Positions 1 through 14,085 of a stretch of 24,501 nt of DNA are shown here, piece after piece. Position numbers and translations under genes: made by a program. Origin of the DNA: a virus. Position 1 is the first letter of the stretch; the number at the start of each line of letters is the position of its first letter. The notes below the pieces were generated by a model. It saw nothing but the letters and a program-made list of their open reading frames with translations, ran no database searches and was not told the DNA's origin. Location: positions 1 to 24,501 of IMG/VR virus record IMGVR_UViG_3300025425_000154; one strand, written 5' to 3'.

Positions 1-5
1 TCAAC

Positions 6-13
6 GTTGTATG
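6..13 (-). repeat. Start (R'' box) of a fourth attC-like site, cut by the window edge
   Basis: The minus strand reads CATACAAC here, 37 nt after the methyltransferase stop. It is the exact reverse complement of the GTTGTATG box at 813-820 that opens the same cassette. The rest of the site lies outside the window. Confidence 0.6.
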
Positions 14-50
14 CAAGTGCTAAAGTTCGTGTTTTATCAAAGGTTATTGC

Positions 51-710
51 TTATCTACTCTTTTTTCTTTTATTTTTTTCCGCCCTTTTTTTACTCATAT
101 CCAAATAAAAATCTTTAAGTTCTATCCCTATACAGTTTCTATTCAAATCATCACATACAATTGCTGTAGTGCCATAGCCTAAAAAGCAATCTAAAACAAT
201 GTCATTTTCTTGTGTGAAGTTCTTTATAAAATGTTCAGCCACTTCATATTTCATAACGGCTTTATGTTCTTTAGGCATAGAAGAATTTACAGAAGTTGTA
301 ATTATATTTTTAGTGTAAGTTTTATTGCTTTTTAAAGAAACATTGCCTAATACGATAAAATATTCTACTGCATTTGTGATAGCTTTACCGCTTGCTGGCA
401 TTGGGTTTGATTTTTCCCAAATATGTATGTCAACTATTTTCTCACTAAATAATCCTATTAACTTATATACATCAGCTCTATTGTAGTAATTGGCTTGTAT
501 ATTATAAATAACGTGATTTTTAGTAACTCTTAAAAGTTCATTAATTACATTTACATTCATTTCAAGCCAATTGCCATTTATATCTGTAAATTCTTGGTAT
601 TTATCATTTCTTTTTCTGTTGTAAGGTGGCGAAGTAAATGATAAATCTACACTATCATTTTCCATTGTTCTTAAAACCTCTATACAATTACCTAACTTAA
701 ATTCTACCAT
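51..710 (-). CDS. DNA methyltransferase, beta-type (N4-cytosine or N6-adenine)
   Basis: This 219-aa protein is an S-adenosylmethionine-dependent amino-methyltransferase. Catalytic motif IV, TSPPY, is near residues 26-30. The SAM-binding motif I, DCFLGYGTT, is near the C-terminus at about 173-181, followed by the acidic GIEL segment. Motif IV before motif I is the beta-class order. SPPY is found in both N4C and N6A enzymes, so the modified base cannot be read from sequence. No restriction nuclease is adjacent, so it is an orphan enzyme. In a phage it would most plausibly protect the genome from host restriction. It is the only gene of cassette 3 and starts about 103 nt inside the cassette boundary. 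A basic tail ends the protein. Confidence 0.88.
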   Translation of the reverse strand: MVEFKLGNCIEVLRTMENDSVDLSFTSPPYNRKRNDKYQEFTDINGNWLEMNVNVINELLRVTKNHVIYNIQANYYNRADVYKLIGLFSEKIVDIHIWEKSNPMPASGKAITNAVEYFIVLGNVSLKSNKTYTKNIITTSVNSSMPKEHKAVMKYEVAEHFIKNFTQENDIVLDCFLGYGTTAIVCDDLNRNCIGIELKDFYLDMSKKRAEKNKRKKSR

Positions 711-812
711 ATCTTTGTAAATATTTGGCTATCGCCATTTGCCCTCGCTCAAAATAAAAGAAAAAAGGGTCAGTTATTAATTTAAAGTTTCGTGCTTTAA
801 AGTCGCACCAGA

Positions 813-876
813 CATACAACAATGTATATAACCCATTGCCGAAAAAGGCAACGTGCCATATACTCAGCGTTGGGGC
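813..876 (-). repeat. attC-like recombination site between cassettes 2 and 3
   Basis: This 64-bp site folds as an imperfect hairpin. Outer boxes 817-820 and 869-872 pair (CAAC/GTTG). Inner boxes 824-829 and 858-863 pair (GTATAT/ATATAC). An apical stem pairs 836-840 with 847-851 around a GAAAAA loop. The spacers between outer and inner boxes are unequal (3 and 5 nt), leaving unpaired bases on one side, as in integron attC sites. The minus-strand R'' is GCCCCAAC and the R' is GTTGTATG. They belong to different cassettes and are not complementary to each other, as expected for an integrated array. Confidence 0.75.
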
Positions 877-881
877 AAATA

Positions 882-1196
882 CTACAACCTTAATAGATTG
901 TATAAATCTTCTGGAGTTTTTAAAATAAAAGGTTTATTGTCTATTGTTACTTTGGAATCCTTTTTCCCGAAATCTATTTCCCATAAATAATACTCAATCC
1001 AACTTTGGTAATGTTCGTCTTTAAAATGTTGTTGAAGTATTTTTACCAAAGAATCTACAATGTAATTTCTTGGTAAACTATTATCTACATCTTCGTTATA
1101 ATAGTTGTTTACCGCTTTTGAAAAATCACTTTCTATTCTGCTTTGTTTTTCAATATTATTTATTGCTTCAATAAAAGTTTCCTTACTTATTTCCAT
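882..1196 (-). CDS. Conserved phage-type protein of unknown function (104 aa)
   Basis: A soluble, acidic, mainly helical protein. The middle holds an aromatic stretch (QSWIEYYLWEIDFGKK, about residues 63-78) and the C-terminus a KTPEDLYNLL motif. From memory, proteins of this shape (an N-terminal ETFxxAI helix, then W-I-E-Y and DFG, then a TPEDLYxLL ending) are common in phages and prophages, but I know no function. The start codon lies inside the end of the membrane-protein gene (14-nt overlap), so translation is probably coupled. Both genes share cassette 2. The stop lies 3 nt before the attC-like R'' region. Confidence 0.7.
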   Translation of the reverse strand: MEISKETFIEAINNIEKQSRIESDFSKAVNNYYNEDVDNSLPRNYIVDSLVKILQQHFKDEHYQSWIEYYLWEIDFGKKDSKVTIDNKPFILKTPEDLYNLLRL

Positions 1197-1401
1197 TTGT
1201 CTTTTTATTAAAAAATCTTCTTAAAATATAGCTTCTTGCTATGCTTATTAAGGTAAAATATAAAGTGATTATTAAATTTTTTCCAGTACTACTCTGTATC
1301 CCTAAAATTGGAAAAATCAGGAATAACGAAATCAACGAAATGAAATAGCCGATTGCTACATTTGTCAAACTTTCTAAAAAGGATTGTTTTTTTGTTTGCA
1401 T
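1183..1401 (-). CDS. Small inner-membrane protein, phage-associated family (72 aa)
   Basis: Two hydrophobic segments (about residues 15-33 and 43-55) are separated by a short polar turn, and the protein ends in a basic tail with SIARSYILRRFFN. This layout, N-terminal S-x-x-E-S, two membrane helices and C-terminal R-S-Y-x-x-R-R-x-F-N, matches from memory a small membrane-protein family found in many phages of unrelated hosts. No function is established. It is the first gene of cassette 2, starting about 33 nt after the cassette boundary. It overlaps the next gene by 14 nt. A two-gene cassette is unusual, since most integron cassettes carry one. Confidence 0.75.
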   Translation of the reverse strand: MQTKKQSFLESLTNVAIGYFISLISLFLIFPILGIQSSTGKNLIITLYFTLISIARSYILRRFFNKKTNGNK

Positions 1402-1425
1402 ATTTTTATCTTAAAATTACCGTAC

Positions 1426-1564
1426 TTGCCCCAACACCGTACAAAATTAATTGCTTAGGCTTGGTTTTATTTAGGAACGTCCTCGCAGACTTTCAATTTG
1501 GTTTATATCTATTCTGCTTATCGCTCAACCACGCAAAAAATCTTGTACAAATACGTTGTGCTTA
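1426..1564 (-). repeat. Long attC-like site between cassettes 1 and 2
   Basis: About 139 bp without a gene. On the minus strand it opens with TAAGCACAAC (1564-1555) and closes with GTTGGGGCAA (1435-1426). The arms are imperfect inverted repeats: both ends have CAAC/GTTG boxes, then a matching GTACAA block about 4-6 nt further in, and a TTGC block deeper. The centre is long and variable, as in long attC sites. I see no other feature in this stretch. Confidence 0.65.
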
Positions 1565-1567
1565 ATA

Positions 1568-1945
1568 CTACTTTAGTTCTATCAAAAAAGCCCCTTTCTC
1601 ATTTGGCTTATCTGCAACAGCAAAAAAATAAGTCGTTTTATCCATATCAATATTAAAGCAATCAATAAAGTGGTTTGCAAGGTCTTTGCTTGTAAATCTA
1701 AGTCCGTTATCATTAACACTTTTTGTTCTTAACATAAAGGCATCTGGCTCATCCTCTTTAAACATATAGGCTTTTTTTTGCTTATAGTTAAATCCGAACA
1801 TAACACCTTCGTCATTTTTAAGTCCAGTATTTTCTTGTGCCTTTTCACTTAATATAAATCTATTGCCATTTATTTCAAGTTTTAGAGTTGGGCTTTTTCT
1901 CTGGAAACGTCCGTTTGTTCTTCTAACGTATAGTAATTCTTCCAT
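1568..1945 (-). CDS. Unknown 125-aa protein, possibly AbrB-like at its N-terminus
   Basis: I do not recognise this protein with confidence. Residues 20-58 alternate short beta-type stretches (LKLEINGNRFILSEKA, VMFGFN, KKAYMF), which loosely resemble swapped-hairpin AbrB domains. The C-terminal half has RFTSKDLANHFIDCFNI and ends in beta-like FFAVADKP and GAFLIELK. There is no signal peptide or membrane segment. It is the only gene of cassette 1. The leader AAACACAGACT-ATG resembles the CAGTCA-type leaders of the phage genes. The stop TAG lies 3 nt before the attC-like R'' box. Confidence 0.65.
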   Translation of the reverse strand: MEELLYVRRTNGRFQRKSPTLKLEINGNRFILSEKAQENTGLKNDEGVMFGFNYKQKKAYMFKEDEPDAFMLRTKSVNDNGLRFTSKDLANHFIDCFNIDMDKTTYFFAVADKPNEKGAFLIELK

Positions 1946-1967
1946 AGTCTGTGTTTATTTAACCGTG

Positions 1968-2011
1968 CTAAGCACAACAATATGTATAGTGCATAGCTTA
2001 GGTAGTTGTTT
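1968..2011 (-). repeat. First recombination site of the array (attC- or attI-like)
   Basis: The minus strand reads AAACAAC, about 25 nt, then TATACATATTGTTGTGCTTAG. The right half resembles that of the site at 813-876 (TATACATTGTTG). A CTAAGC/GCTTAG inverted pair spans the site. The GTTGTGCTTA box is complementary to the end of cassette 1. I found no complement of its AAACAAC box upstream, so this may be an attI-like or captured secondary site. The rest of the 110-bp gap (1946-2055) shows nothing else. Confidence 0.5.
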
Positions 2012-4299: not shown

Positions 4300-4850
4300 T
4301 CTATTAATTCTTTAACTCTGTTTATTAAATTTGTATATGATGTAGTGGTTTTTTCGTCATTGAATCTCCAAAGGTTGTTTTCCATAACCTCCATTGCTTT
4401 TAGTACTTCTGCATAATTCCACTCCTTAAAATCATCCGCACGATAAGATTTATTAAGTCTATGATGGGCTTGTAACATAATATTTTCATCTTCTTTTTTA
4501 TCAAAAGGAAGAGCAACTATATCAGCAGATACTACTGATAAAGTTTCCATTGCTTGTTTTGAATGATAAACTCCATTAGCCTCTGCTATAATATTCAAAC
4601 TGGTATGAAATAATTGAGTACAGTAATCATTACTCATCTTATCTGCAAGTCTTTCTATATCCGTATCATCTGTAGGAAGAAATCCTAAATTTCTCAAATC
4701 GTTTGCGTGCAGGCTTGTAATTTTTACGTGGTTTATAGAATTTTGTACAGCTAATAATACAGTATCTATTTCTTCTTTAGAAATTTGGTCTGCATCATAT
4801 TGTAACATTCTAATTGTGCAGATTATATCCTGCTTTAACTGGGTTTCCAT
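4272..4850 (-). CDS. Unknown helical protein (192 aa)
   Basis: A mainly alpha-helical soluble protein with no motif I recognise. The middle contains DLRNLGFLPTDDTDIERLADKM and HTSLNIIAEANGVYH, and the C-terminal half is rich in Trp, Glu and Lys. It is the first gene after the promoter at 4880-4912 and overlaps the Dda-like helicase by 28 nt, so it is probably made with the helicase and could be a cofactor (inference). The leader ends AAAATCAGTCAACA-ATG, the clearest form of the shared leader motif. Confidence 0.75.
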   Translation of the reverse strand: METQLKQDIICTIRMLQYDADQISKEEIDTVLLAVQNSINHVKITSLHANDLRNLGFLPTDDTDIERLADKMSNDYCTQLFHTSLNIIAEANGVYHSKQAMETLSVVSADIVALPFDKKEDENIMLQAHHRLNKSYRADDFKEWNYAEVLKAMEVMENNLWRFNDEKTTTSYTNLINRVKELIEWSNNSLIG

Positions 4851-4879
4851 TGTTGACTGATTTTAATTGTTTAACAAAT

Positions 4880-4912
4880 CAAAGATACAAAAATTTTGTT
4901 TATAAACAAAAT
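4880..4912 (-). promoter_or_regulatory. Palindrome promoter upstream of the 4850 gene
   Basis: On the minus strand, ATTTTGTTTATAAACAAAAT (4912-4893) is followed by TATCTTTG (4887-4880), a perfect TAnnTTTG box. The TTTG at 4910-4907 gives a spacer of 19. The ATG is 29 nt below the box. No terminator separates it from the RNase H stop at 4919, so read-through from upstream is likely as well. Confidence 0.85.
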
Positions 4913-4918
4913 AAATTA

Positions 4919-5374
4919 TTAAATTAATCCTACTTCTTTTAAATAGTCTGTGATGCCCTCTTTAGAAAGTATATCTGCTTCTTTATTATCTTCTCTAGGT
5001 ATCCATTCAACTATCCTCAATCTACTACCTAGTAGCTTCTTATACATCATAGCCTTGTCGTGATAGTGTTTTAAATGAGGGGCTTTAACTTTGTATCTAC
5101 CAGAGAATTGTCTAATTATTAATTGACTGTCTCCATAAATTCTAATTTTAACATCTGCATCTATTGCCATTGTATAGGCGTGGGCTGTTTTTAATGCTTC
5201 TATCAAGGCTTCCCATTCGGCAATGTTAGAAGTTCCATTACTTCCTGCCATCTTTTTAAAATCCAACTCTTCACAACGTTCTCCATTTTCCCATACTGCA
5301 ACTCCTGCCCCCATAAATTTGAACTTGGAGTTATTATCAGCAGCACCGTCAAATTTTAATGTTAGACTTCCCAT
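4919..5374 (-). CDS. rnhA: Ribonuclease HI
   Basis: Cleaves RNA in RNA-DNA hybrids; in a phage it would remove primers or R-loops. The 151-aa protein has the whole catalytic set: D9 in FDGAAD, E53 in NIAEWEAL, D82 in YGDSQLI and D134 in REDNKEAD. Length is typical of a single-domain RNase HI without an N-terminal hybrid-binding domain. It starts on the base after the stop of the 68-aa gene and ends its transcription unit. It is unrelated in type to T4 Rnh, which is a FEN-like nuclease. Confidence 0.93.
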   Translation of the reverse strand: MGSLTLKFDGAADNNSKFKFMGAGVAVWENGERCEELDFKKMAGSNGTSNIAEWEALIEALKTAHAYTMAIDADVKIRIYGDSQLIIRQFSGRYKVKAPHLKHYHDKAMMYKKLLGSRLRIVEWIPREDNKEADILSKEGITDYLKEVGLI

Positions 5375-8631: not shown

Positions 8632-9116
8632 TAAGATATGTATTTACCTCTCAATTCTACAATCTCTTCTTTAGTTTTTGCTCCTGCTCCTTTGGTCTCC
8701 ATAATCTGCTCCAAAGACTTTTGAGAAAATGTGTTTAAATCTATAGAATTAATGTCTGAAATTTCAAAACATTTTCTTACTATGTTTTGGGTTCTTACCG
8801 ACAATTTTTTCAAATCCTGTGTAAAAGAAGATGCCTTAAAAACTCCCCAAATTAACTTCTCGTATTTAGTCATACCAGTAAGTCCTGCGTTGCAATATGC
8901 TTTTATAAGGTTCTCTCTATGGTCTAGTTGCTTACCAGTATCAATTTTGGTAAGTTTAGGGAGACTATTTTGAACAATTCGTACAAATTGTCTAGCTTTT
9001 ATTTTAGAGCCTCTAAAAGTGATATTATCACGTTTAGCAATTCCCCATTTTCTCTCCGACTGTAGTGGGTTCTTTATTTCAGCTACTTTTTGGTCTATGT
9101 CTATTTTATGGCTCAT
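8631..9116 (-). CDS. Putative helix-hairpin-helix DNA-binding protein (161 aa)
   Basis: The C-terminal 40 residues (SIDLNTFSQKSLEQIMETKG, then GAKTKEEIVELRGKY) resemble an HhH unit of the RNA polymerase alpha C-terminal type, where G-x-G-x-K/T backbone contacts bind DNA. The N-terminal two thirds is helical and Lys/Arg-rich with no recognised domain. It lies directly before the VRR-NUC-type nuclease with 1-nt overlap and may be its partner (inference). Its leader AAAACCACAGAAA-ATG lies in the end of the upstream HNH gene. Confidence 0.62.
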   Translation of the reverse strand: MSHKIDIDQKVAEIKNPLQSERKWGIAKRDNITFRGSKIKARQFVRIVQNSLPKLTKIDTGKQLDHRENLIKAYCNAGLTGMTKYEKLIWGVFKASSFTQDLKKLSVRTQNIVRKCFEISDINSIDLNTFSQKSLEQIMETKGAGAKTKEEIVELRGKYIS

Positions 9117-9597
9117 TTTCTGTGGTTTTAAATGATATTCCTTTAGTTTGTTTTCTTTTTCTTTTTAATATGGCGGTTATGTTTCCCTGCGAAACTTTAT
9201 AATATCTGGCGGCATCTGAAATACTATCAAAATCTTTTAGTTCGTCTCCTTTTAAATTTAAACTAGTAACTGCAACAGATGGTCTGCCCATATTTTTAGT
9301 TCTTACTCTTAATCCTAATTCAAAAGCGTGGGCAATATTCTCTTTATGAGTAGCCCATTCCAGATTATCTACGTGGTTATTTTCTTTGTTACCGTCTTTG
9401 TGGTTTACCGTAGGCTTATTTTTAGGATTTGGTATAAATGCTAACGCTACTAATCTATGTACTGTTTTAGTACTTATTTTATTATCCTTACAAAATTTTA
9501 CTATACAATATCCATTTTTATTTAGTTGATATTTTATAACTTTATTAGTTTTTATATTTACTATATTTCCGTTTCTTTCTGCTCTATATTCTGCCAT
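9106..9597 (-). CDS. Free-standing HNH homing endonuclease with NUMOD domains
   Basis: A 163-aa protein in the order NUMOD4-like start, HNH_3 core, NUMOD1-like tail. The core is VHRLVALAFIPNP, then TVNHKDGNKENNHVDNLEW, with the catalytic His in NHKDG. The tail SDAARYYKVSQGNITAILKR is a helix-turn-helix DNA-recognition module. Such genes make a break near their own location and copy themselves into phages lacking them. It sits just downstream of the gp46-like gene and overlaps the next gene by 11 nt. Confidence 0.9.
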   Translation of the reverse strand: MAEYRAERNGNIVNIKTNKVIKYQLNKNGYCIVKFCKDNKISTKTVHRLVALAFIPNPKNKPTVNHKDGNKENNHVDNLEWATHKENIAHAFELGLRVRTKNMGRPSVAVTSLNLKGDELKDFDSISDAARYYKVSQGNITAILKRKRKQTKGISFKTTENEP

Positions 9598-11567: not shown

Positions 11568-11960
11568 TTAAAATGGGCAATCAAAATTATCTCCGTTAAA
11601 TCTATTGCCTTTACTGGCGTTATGCCTATTAGTTTTTATTCTCATATTCCAAATATGATAACCGTGTATGTTACACAATCTATCAATAGTAGCATTTTGT
11701 CCTCTTCTGCCTTTAGAAATTATGTAATTTTCATCTTCACAAAATTTTCTAAACTGCTCCAGAGTTACTGAATTTTCTATTCCTCTCGAAGTGGCTTTAC
11801 TACAAAATTGATTATATCTTGCATATACTGGGTCTTTCTCTTTTAATTTTCTAGCGTAGTGCTTATGGCAAAGTCCTCCTTTTTTCGGATTAGGTTTTTC
11901 TTTGCAACCATAAGCACAACAATAATCTCCTTTATTCTTCTTGGTTTGGCTTATCTTCAT
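11568..11960 (-). CDS. Putative HNH-like homing endonuclease with Cys/His cluster (130 aa)
   Basis: The N-terminus has CCAYGC, then CHKHY and later QFC and KFC, a likely zinc site. The C-terminus has ATIDRLCNIHGYHIWNMRIK, then NRHNASKGN, which resembles phage HNH-type proteins with the pattern I-D-R-x(5)-G-Y-x(2)-x-N followed by N-x-x-K-G. A canonical HNH triad is not obvious, so catalysis is unproven. It lies between the gp47- and gp46-like genes and overlaps the gp47 gene by 29 nt, the kind of insertion expected for a mobile endonuclease. Confidence 0.62.
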   Translation of the reverse strand: MKISQTKKNKGDYCCAYGCKEKPNPKKGGLCHKHYARKLKEKDPVYARYNQFCSKATSRGIENSVTLEQFRKFCEDENYIISKGRRGQNATIDRLCNIHGYHIWNMRIKTNRHNASKGNRFNGDNFDCPF

Positions 11961-12966
11961 CGGACGGTAATTTATGAGTTGGTAAAAATCCTATTCCAAT
12001 CTCTAAAAGTTCCTTATCCTTTCCGTCAACCTCATTCCAATAATTAGTAAGTAAATCTTGTGCTTCTAAACTGGTATTAAAATCTTTGATATTAGCATCT
12101 TCTTTTAATGCAATTTCATCTAATCTAGGCTCCCTAACAACATACATCTGCTCCTCATTTTCTACCTCTTCATCTTCAAATGCTCTAACAAATTGAGGAT
12201 AACCTTTTAGTTCTATAAATTTCATTCCGTTTTCTGGAGCGAGTAAATTCATAACTAAAAATCCTTTTTTGTGTCCTGCATCTGCAAGGTCTCTGTGTAT
12301 CGGATTTCCAACTAACGTAAACTTTTCGGTTATTCTCTTATGAATATGAATATGTCCGCAGAAAACGTGGTCAAATGGCTCGTACGCATCGTCTTTTGGA
12401 TTAGTGTCTGTAGGTATCATCTCATTACCTATACCCTCTGGGGTTTGGTGTATCATAAGATAATGTTTATAAGTATCTGCTTGTTTTGCAACTTCTGAAA
12501 CTTCACTTAATTTAGTTGCAAAATGTTCTTTATACTCATAGTAAGGAACTCCTTGAATTAAGATACTATCTCCAATTTTTCTATTAGTATTATCTACTAC
12601 TACAAAATTAGGACAAATGGCTTCAATATGAGATAAAGCAGATACTGCCTCATTACCAATTAAATTTTTTGTGCTTTGATCGTGGTTTCCAGTTATTGCG
12701 TAAATTGTTTGGTGGGGGTAATTCTCCCCAAACTTTTTAAATGCAATAACTGTTTCATTCACTACCTCTGTTAAAAGTGCTTTCTGTTGGTCGTATAAAT
12801 CTCCAGAAAATAGTATAGTTTTAATATTGTTTTTTACACAAAAATCTCCAATATCAAAAAGTACTTTTAAACAGTTAGTCAACCTAGACCCATCTACATT
12901 AAATCTTCTATAAGAATGTATATGTAAATCGCTAAATATGACTGCAAGATGTCTTTTTTGTTTCAT
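11932..12966 (-). CDS. SbcD/Mre11-like nuclease subunit (T4 gp47-like)
   Basis: A 344-aa calcineurin-type metallophosphoesterase that forms the end-resection complex with the gp46-like ATPase. The metal motifs are in order: FSDLHIHS (D13, H15), FSGDLYD (D56), TGNHDQ (N94-H95-D96), MIHQTPEG and VFCGHIHIH. It starts within the stop of the GIY-YIG gene (ATGA), with no leader motif, so it may depend on coupling. Homing endonuclease genes lie on both sides. Confidence 0.92.
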   Translation of the reverse strand: MKQKRHLAVIFSDLHIHSYRRFNVDGSRLTNCLKVLFDIGDFCVKNNIKTILFSGDLYDQQKALLTEVVNETVIAFKKFGENYPHQTIYAITGNHDQSTKNLIGNEAVSALSHIEAICPNFVVVDNTNRKIGDSILIQGVPYYEYKEHFATKLSEVSEVAKQADTYKHYLMIHQTPEGIGNEMIPTDTNPKDDAYEPFDHVFCGHIHIHKRITEKFTLVGNPIHRDLADAGHKKGFLVMNLLAPENGMKFIELKGYPQFVRAFEDEEVENEEQMYVVREPRLDEIALKEDANIKDFNTSLEAQDLLTNYWNEVDGKDKELLEIGIGFLPTHKLPSDEDKPNQEE

Positions 12967-13607
12967 ACTCTATTTAGTTTTTTGTCCCAATATTCTTTCC
13001 TTGATTGGGACATTTTTAGCTTAGTTTCCTCGCTATGCTCCCTGCCTAACCATCTGCCTTTACTAGATTTACTAATTAGTTTTTTGGTTTCGTCAGACAA
13101 TTTAGTACCTTTCTTTCCACTAGGTCTATTTTTACTGGCAAGTCCTACTTTAATTTTAGTTTCCTGTGATAGTTTTCTCCCAGTAGCTGACTCACTTATC
13201 TTTTTTTTCGTTTCTATTGTGTGGGTTCTTCTACTACTTGCTTTAGAGATATTTTCTATATGCTCCTTACTTAATTTTTTACCTTTATGAGCCGTGCTTA
13301 ATTTTTCTTTAGTAGAACTAGACATAGAACTATTTTTACCTCCTAACTCAATATTATATCCTATATTTCTATTAGTAGAACTTAATTTACTAATCCATAA
13401 AATTTCTTTACAATTAAGTTCGTCAATATTATCTGCATAGTCTATAACTTCACAAGAAAAATTAATAGTACCATTTTTTATTAATGCTTTTTTAATGGTA
13501 GTACCAGAACCATAATAACTTAATTTTACTTTCCCTATTCTTTGTCCTACATAAATCTTACCGTTTAATAAATTTGTGCTTTTGTATATGTAACCAAATT
13601 TACTCAT
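12963..13607 (-). CDS. GIY-YIG homing endonuclease with NUMOD3 repeats
   Basis: The start is set at ATG 13607, giving MSKFGYIYKSTNLLNGK and a tight ATGAGTAA overlap with the upstream gene. The frame also allows 13622. The N-terminal catalytic domain shows G-Y-I-Y, then IYVGQR (the YIG equivalent), and a Glu in NCKEILWI (the metal-binding helix). The C-terminal half is a series of NUMOD3-type repeats (STAHKGKKLSKEH, SATGRKLSQET, KGTKLSDET, KGRWLGREHSEET) for DNA binding, as in I-TevI-like enzymes. It is inserted between the NinB-like and gp47-like genes. Confidence 0.92.
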   Translation of the reverse strand: MSKFGYIYKSTNLLNGKIYVGQRIGKVKLSYYGSGTTIKKALIKNGTINFSCEVIDYADNIDELNCKEILWISKLSSTNRNIGYNIELGGKNSSMSSSTKEKLSTAHKGKKLSKEHIENISKASSRRTHTIETKKKISESATGRKLSQETKIKVGLASKNRPSGKKGTKLSDETKKLISKSSKGRWLGREHSEETKLKMSQSRKEYWDKKLNRV

Positions 13608-14085
13608 CTTTAATAAAATCACTTAAAAAATTATTTCCTCTAGGGTCGGGTATGTCGCAACCTTTTTCTGCCCAATATTTTTGAATTTTTTTATATAAAT
13701 CTGTAAATTCTTTAGTATTTAAAGCGGAAGTACTTTTACCTTTTACTACTATTATTTCAGTTCCGTAAACCTCTTTTACTTCTACTTCATAATCTAAAAT
13801 TCTTTGCAAAGTATGAGCGTGTATCGCATCCTTACTTATCGCCTCTCCATTAGTTTCTTTATACCAAGCAGCAATAGTTACGTAGGCAACCCCCCACAAT
13901 GCTCTATTCTGTGCAGCAGAACGTTGATATTTCAACTGCTTAAAACTTACATCTAAAGGCTGTCCTATGAGAGCCTTGAATATCCTTTTAAGAGGTTTGT
14001 AGTGGGCAATTTTAATAAACTGCCCATCTTCGGTCAATTCGCCCACTACGTTAAACTCTCTTTTATTTATGCCTGCTTTAGACAT
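13600..14085 (-). CDS. NinB-like recombination-associated protein (161 aa)
   Basis: The motif YQRSAAQNRALWG (about residues 53-65) and the later KGKSTSALNTKEFTDLYKKI and DIPDPRG resemble the NinB family, which in lambda-like phages is tied to recombination (Orf, an SSB and recombinase-loading factor). The family link is from memory of the R-S-x-x-Q-N-x-x-x-W pattern. The context fits: it follows SSB by 3 nt and precedes the SbcCD-like genes. It may instead be a separate phage family with the same motif. Confidence 0.62.
   Translation of the reverse strand: MSKAGINKREFNVVGELTEDGQFIKIAHYKPLKRIFKALIGQPLDVSFKQLKYQRSAAQNRALWGVAYVTIAAWYKETNGEAISKDAIHAHTLQRILDYEVEVKEVYGTEIIVVKGKSTSALNTKEFTDLYKKIQKYWAEKGCDIPDPRGNNFLSDFIKDE

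Follow-up and report, generated by a model that had tools for sequence, protein, structure and literature searches.

Cassette arrays that lack an integrase have already been published in phages, and the one described here joins them: the accessible sections of Qi et al. (2023; PMC9892861) report 17 such arrays, that of P12002L among them, as well as an assay in which IntI1 recombines P12002L_attC2. For the bacterial side, the part of the IntegronFinder 2.0 paper available to us (PMC9024848) gives Salinibacter ruber M1 as the complete integron in Bacteroidetes proper. The window that we analyzed is an entire IMG/VR virus record of 24,501 bases, a genome fragment whose main genes are all read on the minus strand. 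It contains a phage replication region, with genes for a family A DNA polymerase, DnaB-like and UvsW-like helicases and a Dda-like helicase, among which lie putative homing endonucleases of the HNH and GIY-YIG/NUMOD kinds, judged by eye (9106-9597, 11568-11960 and 12963-13622). At its left end (6-2011) the original prediction placed an integron-type cassette array carrying phage-like genes, and the pairing of segment ends, the attC models and the edges of gene exchange all uphold this. We consider it probable that the region forms one end of such an array, carried by a phage of Flavobacteriia and served by a patch-less integrase of the host, with phage genes antisense to attC and a largely separate cassette pool.

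In this array each cassette spans the interval between successive plus-strand G|TT points and ends, on the plus-strand 3' side, in an attC of its own, as the sequence itself, independent attC models and exchange boundaries show; as a circle, such a cassette would have one complete attC. The first 13 bases (1-13, plus strand) are the R' end of an additional attC cut off by the contig end, with GTTGTATG at position 6. Cassette A (7-869, in plus-strand cassette orientation) starts here, at the G|TT of 6/7, which is also exactly where the identity between P12002L and P12002S begins; its paired ends, GTTGTATG and CATACAAC, coincide with the identity boundary between these two phages. It carries an orphan N6/N4 DNA methyltransferase on the minus strand, antisense to attC (51-710; PF01555, E 6.8e-32). 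A short complete attC (813-876, plus strand) joins it to cassette B (870-1555, plus; ends GTTGGGGCAA and TTGCCCCAAC), which holds two minus-strand genes, one for a 104-aa protein of unassigned function (882-1196; phrog_28377) and one for a 72-aa DUF7220 protein (1183-1401; PF23858, E 1.8e-28; phrog_4276). A long complete attC follows (1428-1562, plus) and leads to cassette C (1556-2038, plus), whose minus-strand gene encodes a 125-aa protein that found no family match in profile searches (1568-1945). The two complete joints thus measure 64 and 135 bases, the third being cut short. Adjoining the truncated array end is a gene for a WYL_2 domain protein (2056-2421; PF10902).

The earliest observation on this locus was that each of three segments begins with the reverse complement of its own end. 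When all segment starts were compared with the reverse complements of all segment ends, this proved correct: pairs from the same segment match over their first 8, 10 and 10 bases and the cross comparisons over 4-5, which barely exceeds the common GTTG core. Outside the core, pairing within a segment adds 4, 6 and 6 matched bases, with a chance probability of about 4^-16 at fixed positions, uncorrected for the choice of sites. The same property is found again in relatives. In particular, the homologue of the middle segment at phage locus L049 has the ends GTTAGGGC...GCCCTAAC and the segment of the window GTTGGGGC...GCCCCAAC, both cassette ends having changed together. As in CALINs, the R' and R'' boxes are therefore complementary cassette by cassette, with edges at G|TT. 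The claim that the joints fold with paired boxes stands for two of them, which are complete. The third, at about 1969-2038, retains only the left half (R''/L'', plus strand) of the cassette C attC, its far half having been replaced by unrelated phage DNA; it reaches a mere 8.9 bits with model R3 (see below), and in the related phage L001 its counterpart is still complete (4842-4975, 59.8 bits).

A covariance-model search for attC, which had been named as a check, came out in favour of the array, which thereby withstands the refutation set out in the original prediction. Besides R1, built from seven phage joints, we used two models made from host chromosomes and containing no phage sequence, R2 from 40 long attC sites and R3 from 12 short ones. 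These host-only models match the two complete joints and nothing else: the long one scores 79.6 bits with R2 (E 1.2e-13) and the short one 46.3 bits with R2 (E 2.9e-7) and 43.8 bits with R3 (E 2.6e-8), while the next-best R2 or R3 match in the window has an E-value of 0.34, all these values being rough since the calibration was shortened. Both strong matches lie on the plus strand, the short joint scoring 7.9 bits with R3 on the minus. The window thus holds at least two attC sites recognized by covariance model (1428-1562 and 813-876), another trait of CALINs. In the alignment of chromosomal sites, which were gathered with R1 and are therefore biased towards its structure, 96% of the pair cells are paired, and shifting the partner columns abolishes the signal. 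Of its 13 L-stem pairs, ten have compensatory changes at both positions and wobble intermediates are absent, which is what a structure folded in DNA would predict. Single-strand folding energies on the minus strand (z -1.8 for 813-876, -0.4 for 1428-1562) are not decisive alone, and the argument for attC rests on covariation and model scores instead. An ad hoc L-box scan was dropped as sole evidence, given its many chance matches.

Intergenic, stem-forming repeats that sit in the 5' leader of their own gene, as the phage attC sites do, could also act at the level of RNA, as transcription terminators or hairpins, with no part in recombination. We find this very hard to credit. An Rfam scan of the window gave no match, the L stem is devoid of G-U intermediates, end pairing is confined to the same gene block, and edges of gene exchange fall at the repeats. 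Moreover, R1 matches in flavobacterial chromosomes form arrays that adjoin a tyrosine recombinase found independently by protein search.

Comparison with related phages, the second check that had been named, shows cassettes being gained and lost at G|TT. The Polaribacter phages P12002L and P12002S have a methyltransferase cassette in common that is identical from G|TT to G|TT on the plus strand, attC included, and they differ outside it. Cassette C is common to the window and L001, where a 96% identical protein lies between other flanks and identity begins exactly at GTTGTGC. Another methyltransferase cassette is common to L006 and L018, with identity beginning exactly at GTTAGCGG. The homologue of cassette B in L049 has both its ends altered in step, and the 104-aa gene of the same cassette is also found in a further phage array (L166, 4342-4731). 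Each cassette of the window thus recurs singly in another phage, beside other genes. Among the viral cassette genes examined are DNA methyltransferases, a PAPS-reductase-like protein, an HNH endonuclease and a YopX protein. Outside phage arrays, most DUF7220 relatives have no cassette ends, and DUF7220 is therefore an ordinary phage gene that is sometimes found in a cassette. At two loci (L050, 383-1025; L031, 4001-5312) a DUF7220 and YopX pair is bordered at one end by an attC and at the other by ordinary phage surroundings, which suggests either that a cassette is arising out of common phage genes or that one is degenerating back into them.

Some of these exchanges could be attributed to homologous recombination within common attC sites. 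In one rival reading the array is a relic: its cassettes would have been taken up a single time out of a host integron, and homologous recombination at the conserved attC sequences would be all that moves them between phages today. The truncated joint at the right end of the array, the lack of a recombinase in the phages and the L050 locus, which resembles a mosaic with its DUF7220/YopX pair minus one attC, would all fit such a history. Nevertheless we judge it unlikely, since exchange edges fall on the G|TT base and are not scattered through attC, cassette ends in the window and L049 change together as expected if both still meet as one attC in a circle, cassette B is flanked by very different attC sites of 64 and 135 bp, and the cassette genes find no match among those of host arrays.

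The polarity of recombination assumed in the original prediction turned out to be reversed. Both the reading direction of the attC sites and the cut points, at G|TT, belong to the plus strand, which puts every attC upstream of the gene in its own cassette. In host arrays, we counted open reading frames of at least 70 aa between neighbouring attC sites, finding 108 in sense and two antisense. Phage loci of a first set, one of them a Tenacibaculum prophage locus (L031), gave two sense and 44 antisense. A second viral set, fetched separately from IMG/VR by attC sequence patterns only, gave six sense and 122 antisense once duplicates were removed, and none of its contigs has attC on both strands. 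Genes oriented with attC, a usual though not strictly defining trait of CALINs, are therefore not what we see: those of the window and 166 of the 174 viral cassette reading frames are antisense. All these counts come from related loci, which are not independent events, and from reading frames called by a simple script; despite such kinship, the contrast between phage and host is nearly complete in both directions. Furthermore, a comparison of 215 viral with 105 chromosomal cassette reading frames returned no protein match at E <= 1e-3. Reversed polarity and the lack of common cassette genes together point to a pool of cassettes traded between phages and separate from that of their hosts.

What, then, does the host offer? 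Among 120 Flavobacteriaceae genomes, 84 encode a XerA-like recombinase some 355-440 aa long. It fits XerA best, scores 183-216 bits against the integron-integrase model TIGR02249, below the 265 cut-off, and lacks the additional domain, or patch, of IntI, as seen in the comparison of A7 with IntI2 and in IntI4 matching in two separate stretches; on neither count does it fall within the IntI family. Canonical IntI was found in none of 299 Flavobacteriaceae genomes at E <= 1e-50; the controls built into the search tool do not respond at this threshold, and a plasmid IntI2 run through it as positive control scores 410.7 bits. The recombinases of L081-L091 have an N-terminal extension of about 80 aa with a conserved tryptophan motif (KWS......W) and no Pfam match, which could be a DNA-binding domain specific to the flavobacterial integrase.

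Around this recombinase, attC matches were found at 34 of 40 loci (29 with R1 and five more with R2), the loci not being phylogenetically independent; in four of the other six the contig ends just after the gene, and one more (L138) has a single marginal match. Control loci from the same genomes gave none in 18 with R1 (E <= 0.1) and one in 18 with R2. That one (L156, 9087-9232; E 5e-4) may be a lone attC in the chromosome, at a distance from the recombinase. The R1 matches lie downstream of the recombinase gene in 100 of 101 cases and have the same polarity in all 101; at L090, L133 and L134 the array is on the opposite side and still reads away from the recombinase. Directly 3' of the gene we recognized attI-like motifs that end in GTT and fall into two families, one with a palindrome ahead of ATTGTT and the other of the ATATAACCAGTTG type. 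Tyrosine recombinase, attI-like motif and attC array, the components of an integron, are thus found together in these hosts. A chromosomal example is Arenibacter palladensis (L090, 6259-12343), with recombinase, attI-like dyad and contiguous cassettes, which makes it well suited as a model. On a Chryseobacterium plasmid (NZ_CP041688.1, 8995-18981), a patch-less recombinase is accompanied by co-oriented cassette-like genes and weak attC matches, possibly a mobile, plasmid-borne version of the host integron.

As had been noted for the array, no intI accompanies it: there is no match to PF00589 or A3 in the window or in the P12002 genomes, and the absence of an integron integrase nearby is again as in CALINs. 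Of the two sources of integrase first envisaged, the phage itself and the host, the former found no support, PF00589 being absent from the window, the complete P12002L and P12002S genomes and the 83.7-kb contig that holds L001. A phage recombinase beyond the 24.5-kb fragment is possible, with the complete P12002 genomes having none. Two virus records (L171 and L172) contain stop-ridden, degraded copies related to the recombinase. That an enzyme encoded by phages, instead of the host integrase, moves the cassettes seems to us improbable: the mirrored polarity, the fragmentary nature of the window and those two degraded copies would speak for it, but P12002L, P12002S and the 83.7-kb contig are free of tyrosine recombinases and the phage sites fit models built from host sites.

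A host integrase acting in trans is therefore the probable source, most likely the XerA-like, patch-less enzyme, which has an attI and attC arrays of its own, their attC belonging to the same family. Its association with arrays in hosts is directly observed, and we infer that it would act on phage attC sites as well. It would excise and insert phage cassettes during infection, probably from phage genome to phage genome. Genes antisense to attC follow the direction of phage transcription, which may be the reason for their orientation. The recombining attC strand would be the coding strand, and hence the lagging-strand template if replication and transcription are co-directional. In this context we put forward, tentatively and as a real possibility rather than our expectation, that phages of Flavobacteriia keep a pool of mirror polarity swapped by the patch-less integrase of their hosts, in which a recombining attC strand on the coding strand would make cassettes more mobile and hold the two pools apart.

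Phage cassette arrays would gain a likely engine in the host, and the polarity rule sets their cassettes apart from those of host arrays. Both elements, the patch-less host integron as engine and the phage polarity rule, appear new within a literature coverage that is incomplete and without preprints; no earlier report of patch-less flavobacterial integrons was found in it, most subscription papers also lying outside. Integrons as a gene-swapping system of phages, for instance of methyltransferases against restriction, and the need for the IntI patch in attC recombination now become testable. IntegronFinder looks for a patch-bearing integrase. Searches based on the patch would miss an integron type present in about 70% of the sampled Flavobacteriaceae genomes. 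The Salinibacter ruber M1 integron is likewise from Bacteroidetes, and the available part of its source (PMC9024848) names no complete integron in Flavobacteriaceae, which fits a system missed by patch-based searches.

The closest described relatives of the window are the phage CALINs of Qi et al. (2023; PMC9892861), likewise attC arrays without an integrase, found in virulent phages and including methyltransferase cassettes; P12002L itself carries a homologue of the methyltransferase cassette of the window. Unlike the present analysis, the accessible sections of that paper name no host system for P12002L, call its attC directions divergent and do not describe mirrored genes as a pattern among viral contigs. 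Chromosomal integrons share with the flavobacterial system a recombinase, an adjacent attI-like site, an array of cassettes with folding attC sites, genes reading away from the recombinase and complementary cassette ends. They differ in having IntI, whereas the flavobacterial recombinase has no patch and stays below the TIGR02249 cut-off, and in phage arrays the recombinase is missing and the genes are reversed. In sequence, the nearest relatives of the flavobacterial recombinase are XerA and other Xer proteins (4a8e, 5hxy; NF040815), from which it departs in the N-terminal extension of most members and in its association with a cassette array rather than with a dif-type role.
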